Notes under the pieces: generated by a model
Told to the model about the DNA's origin: nothing
Databases searched by the model: none
Seen by the model: the letters and a program-made list of their open reading frames with translations, nothing else
Part shown: piece by piece, positions 14,128 through 18,863 of the stretch
Layout of the letters: each line of letters begins with the position of its first letter
Numbering within the stretch: the stretch's first letter is position 1
Translations under genes and position numbers: made by a program
DNA from: Acidimicrobiales bacterium
GTDB taxonomy: Bacteria; Actinomycetota; Acidimicrobiia; Acidimicrobiales; SHLQ01
DNA: 34,656 bases
Reading direction: 5' to 3'
Assembly: GCA_020628865.1 (NCBI GenBank)
Contig: JAHDEJ010000007.1
Coordinates: 101,722-136,377, forward strand

Positions 14128-15876
14128 ATGACCGAACAGGCAGACCACGACCTCATCGTCATCGGCGGAGGTGCCGGCGGTTTGTCGGTCGCCATCTCCT
14201 CGCTACGGTCCGGACTCGAACGAGTCCGAGTGATCGAATCCGGCGCATCGGTCGGGTTCCCCGACCTCGTCCCCGAGAACCGGATCGACGTCTCCTACGA
14301 CGAAGAGATCTCCTCGATCACGATGGAAGGCGAACTTGTTCGCATCGTGACCAACCTGCACACGTATCGGTCCCGTGGCTGCCTGATCGCCGTCCGTTGT
14401 GAGGATCCTGCCTGGTCCATTCCCGTCAAGGGCGCGACCGTGGGGGAGCGGGTCAGCATCGACAGCCTTCCCGATGGGTTGCAGGACCGCGATGTGCTCG
14501 TCGTCGGCATGACCAACAACGCGGTCGAGGTGGCGGCCGCGGCAGCGGCTGCGGGCGCCGGCGTGGTTCTCGCCGCAGGTGGCATGGACCCCGCCCAGCT
14601 CGCTCCGGCCGCCGACAACATGCTCCGCCGGCTCGAGCGCGAGCGTCGCATCACCGTGCTGTACCGCGCGGTGCCGGACGAGATCGGTGCTCGCGACGGG
14701 TTCCCGGTCGCCTACTTCAACGACCGGCGCACCCCCGATCTCGAATTCGATCACGTCGTGTTCGCCTCGCAACGGCGAGAACTCGGTCCGGACTCCTTCG
14801 GCGTGTCTGCTGAAGCGTTGGCATCAGGGAAGGTCTGGTTCCAGGGCACGCCGAGCGAGAACGTTCCGAATGCGGCGAGCTCGTGGGAGGTCGGCACGCT
14901 CCTCGCCGAAGCGTGTTTCCCCGAACTCGATGCGCCGGTGGCGCCGACCGCATTGGCCCGACGGGTTCGCAACGAGTCGGCGGTCGCCGAGCTTCGGATC
15001 GAGCACTACAACGCCACCATCACGAAGTTCGAGCCCACACACTCCGACCTCTGGGTGCTTCGGGTCAAGCCCGACCACGGAGACACCTCACACCTTCCCG
15101 GCCAATATGCCTCGCTCGGGCTGGGCTACTGGGAAGACCGGATCGACGACGCCCACGACTCCGGCATGGACGACAAGTGGTTCAAACTCATCAGGCGCTC
15201 GTACTCGATCAGCCATCCGATCTTCGACGACACCGGCTACCTGGCCGCGCCCGACACAGAGGAGCTCGAGTTCTACATCGTGCTCGTACCGCCGACCGAC
15301 GGACACGTGCCGGCGCTCACTCCCCGCCTCGCCCTCAAGCGTCCCGGCGACCGGATCTACCTCGGCCCGAAGGTCGCAGGCCGCTACACACTCGCCTCGG
15401 TGACGGATCCGGAATCGGCCGTGATCTTCTTTGCGACCGGCACCGGCGAGGCCCCGCACAACTCGATGGTCACCGAGCTGCTGCGCAAGGGCCACACGGG
15501 CCCGATCATCTCCACCGTCACCGTTCGCAACAACGCCGACCTCGGCTACCTGGATGAACATCGGACGTTGGCCAAGCGGTTCGCCAACTATCACTACCTC
15601 CCGATGCCAACCCGTGAGCCCGACGTCGCCAAACGCTACCTCCAGGATCTGATTCGTGACGGCGACCTCGAACGGGTCCTCGGCGGCGAGATGAACCCCG
15701 CCGAGATCCACGCGTTCCTCTGCGGCAACCCGGCCATGATCGGCCTGCCGGAAGACGAGGACGGAACGATGCGCTTCCCCGACCCCGCCGGCGTCATCGA
15801 GCTCCTCGTCGACCGGGGTTTCACGCTCGACAAACGCGGTGCCCCCGGAAACATCCACTACGAGGAATACTGGTAA
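14128..15876 (+). CDS. Flavoprotein: N-terminal FAD/NAD(P)-binding reductase fused to ferredoxin-NADP reductase
   Basis: 582 residues. Residues 1 to about 285 form a thioredoxin-reductase-like two-dinucleotide-fold domain: HDLIVIGGGAGGLSVAIS at the N-terminus, a second fold near DVLVVGMTNNAVEVAAAAAAAGAG, and no CxxC redox pair. Residues from about 290 on are a ferredoxin-NADP reductase: the FAD motif RRSYS (356-360), GPKVAGRYTL, the NADP motif FATGTGEAP (about 434-443), FLCGNPAMIG, and the characteristic end GNIHYEEYW with a terminal aromatic residue. It probably passes electrons between NAD(P)H and a ferredoxin or flavodoxin. It lies 49 bp after the SDR gene and may be co-transcribed. A GTG at 14122 is a two-codon-longer alternative. 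Confidence 0.85.
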   Translation: MTEQADHDLIVIGGGAGGLSVAISSLRSGLERVRVIESGASVGFPDLVPENRIDVSYDEEISSITMEGELVRIVTNLHTYRSRGCLIAVRCEDPAWSIPVKGATVGERVSIDSLPDGLQDRDVLVVGMTNNAVEVAAAAAAAGAGVVLAAGGMDPAQLAPAADNMLRRLERERRITVLYRAVPDEIGARDGFPVAYFNDRRTPDLEFDHVVFASQRRELGPDSFGVSAEALASGKVWFQGTPSENVPNAASSWEVGTLLAEACFPELDAPVAPTALARRVRNESAVAELRIEHYNATITKFEPTHSDLWVLRVKPDHGDTSHLPGQYASLGLGYWEDRIDDAHDSGMDDKWFKLIRRSYSISHPIFDDTGYLAAPDTEELEFYIVLVPPTDGHVPALTPRLALKRPGDRIYLGPKVAGRYTLASVTDPESAVIFFATGTGEAPHNSMVTELLRKGHTGPIISTVTVRNNADLGYLDEHRTLAKRFANYHYLPMPTREPDVAKRYLQDLIRDGDLERVLGGEMNPAEIHAFLCGNPAMIGLPEDEDGTMRFPDPAGVIELLVDRGFTLDKRGAPGNIHYEEYW

Positions 15877-15879
15877 CGG

Positions 15880-15896
15880 GGAACCCTTCGGGTTCC
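15880..15896 (+). terminator. Hairpin after the flavoprotein gene
   Basis: GGAACCC-TTC-GGGTTCC, a perfect 7-bp stem, starts 4 bases after the stop at 15876. A second stem (15899-15906 with 15918-15925, CAGCTTCA/TGAAGCTG) follows at once. Together they make a plausible terminator without a T-run. Confidence 0.55.
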
Positions 15897-15913
15897 TACA
15901 GCTTCATCCCTGC

Positions 15914-15990
15914 GGGCTGAAGCTGCCCGACGTTCGTCGCCTTGGGGCTCCTCACTTCATGCCTTTCGGCCCTGGCGGGCCGAAACGCAG
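15914..15990 (+). repeat. Repeat A, copy 1 (77 bp)
   Basis: Matches 16000-16076 with about 6 differences. It contains the dyad TTTCGGCCC-TGGC-GGGCCGAAA (15964-15985). It lies in the 443-bp gene-free stretch 15877-16319. Confidence 0.9.
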
Positions 15991-15999
15991 ACTTCTTCG

Positions 16000-16076
16000 G
16001 GGCTGAAGCTGCCCGACGTTTGTTGCCCAGGGGCTCCTCACTTCGTGCGTTTCGGCCCTGGCGGGCCGAAACGCAG
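16000..16076 (+). repeat. Repeat A, copy 2 (77 bp)
   Basis: Second copy, 86 bp after the first start to start. Its dyad is longer: a perfect 12-bp stem (16047-16058 with 16063-16074, loop TGGC). One of the changes against copy 1 restores outer pairing, as expected if the structure matters. Confidence 0.9.
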
Positions 16077-16112
16077 GCTCACTTCGGACTGGGCTCAGCG
16101 CTTCGTTTCCGT

Positions 16113-16180
16113 CGATCCGTGGTCGGATCACCACATTCGTACCGGGTACCGATGTGGGGGAGTGAGCGCTTTGGGTGGTC
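16113..16180 (+). repeat. Repeat B, copy 1 (68 bp)
   Basis: Matches 16254-16321 with 3 differences. The centre is a dyad around CCACAT (16131-16136) and ATGTGG (16152-16157) with GGTACC-like inner bases. No frame in it looks coding. Confidence 0.9.
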
Positions 16181-16253
16181 TTGCTGAGCGGCTCGACGTG
16201 TACCGGAGAGCCGCAGGAAGTGGAATAGGTGCGGTTGGCGGTTCGTTCTTCGA

Positions 16254-16321
16254 CGATCCGTGGTCGGGTCACTACATTCGTACCTGGTACCGATGTGGGG
16301 GAGTGAGCGCTTTGGGTGGTC
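16254..16321 (+). repeat. Repeat B, copy 2 (68 bp), touching the stop of the trehalose gene
   Basis: Starts 141 bp after copy 1 and ends inside the stop codon (16320-16322, minus strand) of the OtsB-GH15 gene. On the minus strand it would be the immediate 3' untranslated region of that gene. Confidence 0.9.
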
Positions 16322-18863
16322 AGTTGCTGAGGTTCAGGGCGTTGTTGATGGCGCCCAGGTGGCTGTAGGCCTGGGGGTGGTTGCCGAGGGAGCGGCCTGT
16401 TGCGGGGTCGACCTCCTCGGAGAGGAGGCCGGTCTGGCCGGCTGTCGCCAACAGTGCGCGGAAGAGCTCCTCGGCGTTTTCCCGCTCGCCGATGAGCAGA
16501 TAGCTGTCGATCAGCCAGGAGGTCATCAGGTGGAAGCCGCCCTCCGCTCCCGGCAGACCGTCGTCGTGGTGGTAGCGGTACACGGTCGTGCCGGCCCGGA
16601 GCTGGGCCTCGACTCCACGCACCGTTCCGACGAATCGAGGATCCGTCGGCTCGACCAATCCGAAGAGGCCAACGCTGAGCACCGAGGCGTCGAGATCGAC
16701 CCCGTCGTAGGCGGTCGTGAAGCTGCCGACCGTCTCGTTGTAGCCGTTCTCGAAGATGTCGGCAGCAATCGTGTCGCGGAGCGTCTCCCATTCCGGGCGC
16801 TGACGGCCGAAAACCTCGCTGGCGAGATCGATGGCCCGATCGACGGTGACCCAACACATCACCCGTGAGTACACGTGGTGACGGGGCGCCGAACGGATCT
16901 CCCAAATGCCGTGATCCGGCTCTTCCCACCGGTTCTCGACAGCGCTCACCATCGCCTCGACCAGCCGCCAGTGACGGGCCGAGAGGGGAGCGCCCCGCTG
17001 CCCGAGCAGATGGACCAGATCGACGATCGGTCCGAACACATCGAGCTGCACCTGGTTGTCGGCGGCGTTGCCCACGCGGACCGGCCGAGAACCGCCGTAG
17101 CCGGCGAGCTCGGTGATGTCGGCCTCCGGCGGAAGCTTGCCGCCGTCGAGCGTGTACAGCGGGTTGAGCCGGTCGGCTTCGCCGCCGCCCTCCTCGAGCA
17201 CGCCGAGCACCCAGTCCAGGTAGTCCATCGCTTCGGTATGACTGCCCAAACGCACGAGGGCCGCCGCGCTGAGCGCTGCGTCCCGAAGCCAGCAGTAGCG
17301 GTAGTCCCAGTTGCGAACACCGCCGATGAACTCCGGCAGGCTCGTCGTGGCTGCTGCAGCGATACCGCCGCTCGGCCCGTAGACGAGCGCTTTCAGAATC
17401 AGCGCAGATCGTTTCACGAACGACGAGGACTCCTGAGGGAGTTCGAGGCGGTCGGCCCAATCGTTCCAGAACCGCCGGGTGTGATCCCGACGTCGACCCT
17501 CGTCCGCTTCGGCCCGGAGGCTGGCGGTACCCACGCGGAGTTCGAGCGTGAGCGGACCGTTGCTGAGATCGACCGTGGCGCGAGCGGTCTGATGTTGGCC
17601 GTCCGGCACGATCTCCCAGTCGACGCCTTCGGACCGGAGCACGACGAGATCGCGCGCCCCCATCACCTCGAGCCCACCGTCACGAACCTCCAGCTGGGTG
17701 GGGAAGCGGCCGAAGTCCTGGCGTGGAGCAAACTCGATGACTGCGCTCCCGGTGCCCGACAGTTGCCGAATCAGGTCGGAGCGACCGGCCAGCAAACCGG
17801 GCCGGCCATCGGAAACGTCGAGGTAGTCCAACGTGGTCACACCGGACCAGATCGTCTCGAGGATCATCGTCGAGCCGCTGTAGCGCTGCAGGATCGGGGC
17901 GCTGCCGTCGGCAGCCGCAACCGAGAAGTAGCCGGCGCTCGGGCCGCCAAGGAGTTCGGCGAAGATGGCGGGGTCGTCCAGGCGCGGAGCGCAGAACCAC
18001 GTGATTCGAGCGTCGGGCGTGACGATGGCGGCAGTGCGCTGATCGGACAACAGACTGTGCTGCTCGATCGGGACCAGGCCGGCCCCGGCAAGCCATTCGG
18101 CGCGAAGCGTGGCGAGCTGGCTGAGGAGCCGGGCGACGTCGGTCGTGCCATCAATGCGAAACTCGGCGATCGTGTCGCCGTCGCCAACCTTGACACCGAG
18201 ATCCGGGCCGCCGAGTGTGGCGAACGCGTCTTCGTCCGTTCCCTCGTCGCCGAGGAACAGCACGGCACTGGCGCTCAGGTTGGACCGGAGTGTGTCGAGC
18301 GCCCCGCCCTTGTCGGTCTGCATGACGCCGAGCTCGACCACCCGCTTGCCGTGTCGGATGGAGAGATCGGGGTTGTCGACGGCGATCGCCGCGACCTCGT
18401 CGACGGCGGCTGGAACGATGGCGTCCTCGGCATTGCGGGTGTGGAAGGCCACCGAGGCGGGCTTCTGCTCCAGGACCGTTCCCGGGTAGCGGTTGGCGAT
18501 CTCGGCGAGGAGTTCTCCGAGTTCGTTCCGGCGGGCGATGGTCTCGGCGTCCATTTGCAGGGCGAAGTCCACATCGAACTCGCTGCCGTGACTGCCGACG
18601 AGGTGAATCTCGGCCGGGAGCCGGCTGAGCGCGGCGAGATCGCGGAGCGATCGGGAGGAGATGACGCCGACTTCGGTCTGGTCGAGTCCGGCGAGCGTTC
18701 GCAGCGCGACCGCAGCTTCGCGATCGGGTACGGCCTTCATCGGGTCGTTGACGATTGGAGCAATGGTGCCGTCGTAGTCGGTGGCGACGAGGAGATGTGG
18801 CACCTGGGCGAGGAGCACCAGGCGGTCCTGGAGCTCGGCGGAGAAAGGCATGATGTCAGTCAC
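16320..18863 (-). CDS. Trehalose-6-phosphate phosphatase fused to GH15 glucosidase/trehalase
   Basis: 847 residues in two domains. Residues 20-255 are an OtsB-type HAD phosphatase: ATDYDGTIAPI (nucleophile Asp29, Asp31), GVISSRS, TDKGGAL (Lys185) and GDEGTDEDAF (205-214). Residues from about 265 to the end are a complete GH15 (alpha/alpha)6 enzyme: PIEQHSLLSDQRTAAIV at its N-terminus, RNWDYRYCWLRDA, LDVFGP, GIWEIR (proposed acid Glu) and LLSEEVDP (proposed base Glu). Actinobacterial GH15 members include trehalases, so one chain may dephosphorylate trehalose 6-phosphate and split the trehalose. A TACCGT box 8 bases upstream supports GTG 18863; ATG 18851 is possible. No signal peptide, so cytoplasmic. 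No otsA is in the window. Confidence 0.9.
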   Translation of the reverse strand: MTDIMPFSAELQDRLVLLAQVPHLLVATDYDGTIAPIVNDPMKAVPDREAAVALRTLAGLDQTEVGVISSRSLRDLAALSRLPAEIHLVGSHGSEFDVDFALQMDAETIARRNELGELLAEIANRYPGTVLEQKPASVAFHTRNAEDAIVPAAVDEVAAIAVDNPDLSIRHGKRVVELGVMQTDKGGALDTLRSNLSASAVLFLGDEGTDEDAFATLGGPDLGVKVGDGDTIAEFRIDGTTDVARLLSQLATLRAEWLAGAGLVPIEQHSLLSDQRTAAIVTPDARITWFCAPRLDDPAIFAELLGGPSAGYFSVAAADGSAPILQRYSGSTMILETIWSGVTTLDYLDVSDGRPGLLAGRSDLIRQLSGTGSAVIEFAPRQDFGRFPTQLEVRDGGLEVMGARDLVVLRSEGVDWEIVPDGQHQTARATVDLSNGPLTLELRVGTASLRAEADEGRRRDHTRRFWNDWADRLELPQESSSFVKRSALILKALVYGPSGGIAAAATTSLPEFIGGVRNWDYRYCWLRDAALSAAALVRLGSHTEAMDYLDWVLGVLEEGGGEADRLNPLYTLDGGKLPPEADITELAGYGGSRPVRVGNAADNQVQLDVFGPIVDLVHLLGQRGAPLSARHWRLVEAMVSAVENRWEEPDHGIWEIRSAPRHHVYSRVMCWVTVDRAIDLASEVFGRQRPEWETLRDTIAADIFENGYNETVGSFTTAYDGVDLDASVLSVGLFGLVEPTDPRFVGTVRGVEAQLRAGTTVYRYHHDDGLPGAEGGFHLMTSWLIDSYLLIGERENAEELFRALLATAGQTGLLSEEVDPATGRSLGNHPQAYSHLGAINNALNLSN

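Follow-up and report, generated by a model that had tools for sequence, protein, structure and literature searches.

A probable mosaic of REP-like repeats between two convergent genes of an Acidimicrobiales bacterium

RESULTS

A 443-bp gap between two convergent genes of an Acidimicrobiales bacterium was found to carry two pairs of repeats, units A and B, and the mosaic intergenic element suspected there in an earlier note on this DNA was borne out, as both units are dispersed through the genome. The reading that we prefer, at a probability of about 75%, is a mosaic of REP-like mobile elements, in which B would have been spread by a RAYT transposase and A would be a separate double-hairpin element at the 3' ends of genes and tRNAs. 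The 34,656-nt stretch of DNA that was analysed is referred to below as the window.

Layout of the intergenic block

The gap lies between a plus-strand gene ending at 15876 and a minus-strand gene ending at 16320, and it holds, in this order, a GGAACCCTTCGGGTTCC hairpin, a second hairpin, two A units and two B units (Table 1). A repeat search recovered both tandem pairs, which the earlier note had described accurately to a few bases: its periods of 86 (A) and 141 (B) stood, while its unit lengths of 77 and 68 nt were slightly short of the actual 80 and 71 nt. The two copies are 91% identical for A and 94% identical for B. The hairpin of A copy 2 is indeed longer and perfect, with a stem of 13 bp rather than the 12 bp reported, and in copy 1 a single C.C mismatch interrupts the stem; the T-G wobble described for B copy 2 was also found (CTACAT/ATGTGG versus CCACAT/ATGTGG). 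The orientation of A was defined by the strand bearing its G.A steps, the minus strand of the window.

The right end of B copy 2, GGGTGG, abuts the stop codon (TCA, 16320-16322) of the downstream minus-strand gene, and the junction GGGTGG/TTAG in contig C104 of a close relative (G008) is the same as at this end. The GGAACCCTTCGGGTTCC hairpin was found at 13 places in the genome (the window and 12 others), with 0 matches for a reversed-pattern control. Since A, B and this hairpin are all dispersed, at least three families of dispersed repeats make up the mosaic. A scan of the block for T-tail terminators gave no match, and no T run was seen behind the A hairpins in the copies listed. Between 7000 and 26900 of the window, T-tail hairpins were rarer than in shuffled sequence (3 versus 9.0), so termination in this region may rarely use T tails.

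Table 1. Features of the intergenic block (window coordinates) and RAYT genes of the genome
Feature	Position	Strand	Remarks
GGAACCCTTCGGGTTCC hairpin, UUCG-type loop	15880..15896	+	3 nt past the stop codon of the upstream gene
AGCTTCATCCCTGCGGGCTGAAGCT hairpin	15900..15924	+	3' half GGGCTGAAGCTGCCCG recurs before A copy 2 (repeat search)
Unit A, repeat copies 1 and 2	15914-15993; 16000-16079		80 nt
A element copy 1	15927..15989	-	covariance-model match C51:117648-117710, E 3.3e-16
A copy 1, hairpin 1	15989-15960
A copy 1, hairpin 2	about 15957-15930
A element copy 2	16013..16075	-	covariance-model match C51:117734-117796, E 8.4e-16
A copy 2, hairpin 1	16046-16075		perfect 13-bp stem, 4-nt loop (inverted repeat)
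Unit B, repeat copies 1 and 2	16110-16180; 16251-16321		71 nt
B element copy 1	16108..16180	+	covariance-model match C51:117829-117901, E 5.7e-13
B copy 1, core palindrome ACATTCGTACCGGGTACCGATGT	16133-16155		core pattern match
B element copy 2	16249..16319	+	covariance-model match C51:117970-118042, E 2.8e-13; core 16274-16296
B-flanked RAYT ORF	L012 1603-2157		contig C112
Four further RAYT genes	L021, L022, L023, L024		G000 contigs C101, C81, C96, C108

Unit B is a dispersed palindrome that flanks a RAYT gene

The bacterium's own genome (G000) is a draft, fragmented assembly of 5.36 Mb in 113 contigs. Searching it with the B part of the block at the DNA level gave 23 matches, the window included, and the B core pattern (up to 3 mismatches) gave 33 matches at about 24 places, several of them being one palindrome counted on both strands, with 0 for the reversed pattern. 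None of 21 loci placed B inside a predicted gene, and the unit adjoins stop codons at other loci as it does in this block. Among 30 genomes (G000 and 29 relatives), only G000 and G008 gave covariance-model matches at E<=1e-3. The B palindrome is imperfect, and 20 of 24 copies oppose C to C at the sixth pair; the aligned copies have the foot CACC/CCACC on both strands, and a 5' GT[AG]G guide was absent from the foot of the hairpin. Covariation in its stems was no higher than in shuffles (0.142 versus 0.140), as expected for DNA copies kept by sequence rather than for a selected RNA fold, and B as a structured RNA was rejected on this result.

An intact ORF of 184 aa has one copy of B directly upstream and another directly downstream, and 23 nt of the B core (CCACCACATCGGTACCAGGTACG) are identical on the two sides. 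Its match to Y1_Tnp (PF01797; E 7.9e-4, 20 bits) was below the cut-off of 23, and that to its best NCBIfam family, REP_Tyr_transpos (NF047646; E 1.5e-8, 34.6 bits), was below the cut-off of 80. H60 and H62 (HUH) and Y119, whose role was assigned from the RAYT literature, are invariant across all five RAYTs of the genome. A PDB search with the B-type RAYT returned no match. The flank script found a RAYT's own palindrome on both flanks in four of the five cases, the B-flanked ORF included: L021, L022 and L023 each have their own palindrome family on either side, and L024 is visibly surrounded by GTGAGACGCGACCCC-type copies. The palindromes of these other RAYTs are AGGTGCCTGGCACCT, GGGGTCTGACCCC and GGGGGCAGCCCCCAC, plus the GTGAGACGCGACCCC-type copies. 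In the B-bearing relative G008, B's RAYT was not found in a genome that is 67% complete. Judged by its association with a RAYT, B is a REP/TIR element of a REPtron, and a mobile-DNA footprint is the better explanation for it.

Unit A consists of two hairpins conserved as structure

A DNA search of the same genome with the A part of the block gave 19 matches, the window included; the covariance model of A gave 30 matches in G000 at E<=1e-3, and 12 of 39 relatives had matches too. Read on the window's minus strand, hairpin 1 has the form GnGTTTCG-tip-CGAAAnnC and is followed by a short linker and by hairpin 2, GT-GA-N-GA-tip-GA-N'-GA-AC, with two conserved tandem G.A steps. N and N' were complementary in 62 of 64 copies (shuffled mean 28.7, maximum 40), some of these copies having been found with a pattern that imposed the G.A frame but not the pairing. 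With an explicit structure, covariation in eight copies was 0.188 versus 0.052 when shuffled (0 of 500 shuffles; slid controls <=0.056), and compensatory changes were seen at 6 of 13 predicted pairs in an unconstrained alignment of 14 copies. The tips of the hairpins vary freely, being common to the copies within one genome and differing between genomes. The G.A steps, which standard folding programs leave open, probably form sheared pairs. Dispersed copies with covarying stems had been named in advance as support for a mobile or regulatory element: A shows both, whereas B shows the dispersal without the covariation.

Rfam 15 returned only tRNA and chance matches at gathering and at relaxed thresholds, and the small-RNA source also suggested in the earlier note gained no support. 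A hammerhead-like reading of GTGANGAG...CGA was rejected, as its 3' side has symmetric G.A instead of GAAA and no Rfam match was found. A broad IUPAC scan with hairpin 2 placed many Acidimicrobiales records among the matches listed; since matches in other phyla were mostly single and the matches listed are incomplete, our claim for this hairpin is confined to the order.

A lies flush with stop codons and tRNA 3' ends in one orientation

Genes around A were predicted by a simple gene caller based on codon usage. The hairpin-2 end of A lay within 3 nt of an antisense stop codon at 8 of 13 loci (expected 0.46; P about 1.5e-9, which refers to distance only, the 13 loci having been picked for a stop on that side), and its hairpin-1 end at none of the 13. 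The gene context on the hairpin-1 side was mixed, with starts and stops. The sequence GGGGTRTGACA (TGTCAYACCCC on the other strand) adjoins the hairpin-2 end at six loci (L048, L049, L074, L124, L128 and L129), where it is perhaps a promoter or a target preference.

At 7 of 42 loci, A was flush with the 3' end of a tRNA (Ala, Val, Ile or Arg), always in the same orientation, with about 0.0015 such cases expected by chance. Behind tRNA-Ala(TGC), A is present in G000 and G002, whereas G006, G007, G009 and G010 have a hairpin with a T tail 3-10 nt from the tRNA instead. In G000 such a terminator is retained 78 nt downstream of this tRNA, behind A, and the order tRNA, A, terminator recurs at tRNA-Val of G013, a case missed by the script and found by eye. 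These arrangements suggest that A was inserted between tRNA and terminator rather than being the terminator. A pure terminator is thus unlikely, in agreement with the earlier note's view of the block as "not only a terminator". Directly behind tRNA-Ala of relatives, other two-hairpin repeats with sequences unlike A were observed (L328, L334, L335, L339 and L341). At L060 (1400-1500), A directly follows an apparent tRNA 3' end that ARAGORN did not call, with a run of N further on.

Presence and absence of the units in a close relative

At this locus, G008 is 92-98% identical to the window. Its contig C206 runs from A copy 1 and the first bases of a truncated A copy 2 straight into the downstream gene, lacking the A2+B+B segment, and on contig C104 B and a GGGGTCTGACCCC palindrome lie in front of this gene end. 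The two contigs overlap by 32 bp in the downstream gene, an overlap that points to two alleles within the population sampled, although in this fragmented, 67% complete assembly they could also reflect strain mixture or misassembly. The copies analysed are from draft, fragmented assemblies. Neither a target-site duplication nor a clean empty site was definable for A or B, and transposition, which was not observed, is inferred.

DISCUSSION

A, and perhaps B, could serve to terminate transcription or to stabilise mRNA 3' ends and be maintained by selection downstream of genes and tRNAs, in which case their spread would be functional rather than selfish. The position of A directly behind stop codons and tRNAs, its strong and RNA-compatible covariation, and the rarity of T-tail hairpins in this part of the window would all fit, but we regard this reading as unlikely, because a hairpin with a T tail still stands behind A at tRNA-Ala of G000 and tRNA-Val of G013 and four relatives have one close to the end of tRNA-Ala. 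Moreover, relative to the gene the G.A steps are on the antisense strand, T.C mismatches being what the sense strand would carry, and the tips are shared within a genome but differ between genomes. Transcription from the G.A strand would make A a source of structured small RNA or a cis-acting RNA element. Covarying stems with conserved noncanonical G.A steps do resemble structured RNAs; yet the lack of an Rfam match and the mixed gene context on the hairpin-1 side, with no fixed promoter, make this very improbable.

For the agent that moves A, one of the genome's RAYTs acting in trans comes to mind, given that RAYTs occur in G000 and in most A-bearing genomes of the family and that the location of A is REP-like. 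We nevertheless think it quite improbable, as none of the five RAYTs of G000 has A at its borders and G035, a genome 95% complete with 45 A matches, has no Y1_Tnp (PF01797) protein. On the same two grounds, A as a RAYT-borne element was rejected. G035 thus excludes the usual suspect for A, which might be maintained without transposition. Between the nearby paired copies of A that were inspected, only ordinary genes were found, with no autonomous partner.

Under the preferred reading, a mosaic of REP-like mobile elements, small elements would have landed in the gap between the two convergent genes. A RAYT-family HUH Y1 single-stranded-DNA transposase would recognise the folded B hairpin and spread nonautonomous copies of it. 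A would be a separate element in which both stems are conserved as structure, tandem G.A mismatches forming a collar in the second. It would insert, or persist once inserted, in a single orientation immediately after the 3' ends of genes and tRNAs, and the enzyme that recognises it, encoded away from it, most likely does so on folded single-stranded DNA. Tentatively, and with low confidence, we propose that A may represent a mobile-DNA class that lacks a known transposase, with two covarying hairpins, sheared tandem G.A collars and an insertion machinery that recognises exact gene 3' ends, mature tRNA ends included, in one orientation.

B resembles the REP/TIR elements of REPtrons and TIRtrons, which are associated with RAYT (TnpAREP) transposases (PMC2817692, PMC3116915, PMC3733652, PMC6006769, PMC8266576), in being a dispersed imperfect palindrome with a conserved internal mismatch, in ending at stop codons, as published REPs often do and which they supply, and in having copies on the flanks of a Y1 HUH transposase gene in a genome with a different palindrome for each RAYT. 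Unlike the canonical REP, it has no 5' GT[AG]G guide, it is longer, at about 70 nt including the outer arms, and it occurs in Acidimicrobiales; the two REP surveys that were searched for the word (PMC3733652, PMC6006769) do not mention Actinobacteria. Since TIRtrons, whose RAYTs have other repeats on their flanks, and class 3 elements, whose feet differ, are already published and likewise lack GT[AG]G, B can be counted as a new REPtron/TIRtron member despite the missing guide. As a kind of element it is ordinary, and its lineage is new: the finding extends REPtrons that comprise several RAYT/palindrome pairs to Acidimicrobiales and offers a clean case for pairing each RAYT with its own palindrome.

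Integron attC sites fold in a strand-specific manner, have the outer boxes AAC...GTT and form cassette arrays. A is like them in that it folds on the gene's antisense strand, abuts the stop codon and combines a conserved frame with a variable tip; however, its outer boxes are GTT...AAC, it forms no cassette arrays and it also lies behind tRNAs. The attC reading was rejected because the boxes are in the wrong order.

Among published elements, A comes closest to the CGTC-tagged REPs (PMC3733652), which are likewise dispersed hairpin repeats beside gene 3' ends with a patchy, wide spread and no dedicated transposase found. Those elements consist of an unpaired CGTC tag, one stem of 8-9 bp whose first pairs are A-T, and a CCA tail (PMC3733652), whereas A has two hairpins (about 64 nt) with covarying stems, of which the second contains two tandem G.A steps; some copies of A lie exactly at the 3' ends of tRNAs, and CGTC is found at its end in some copies only. 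A is the more interesting half of the block, a structurally constrained REP-like family without a transposase and with an oriented address at gene ends, and its strong structural signature, the precision of that address at stop codons and tRNA 3' ends, and G035 as a genome with 45 matches and no Y1 transposase make the spread of transposase-less REPs testable.
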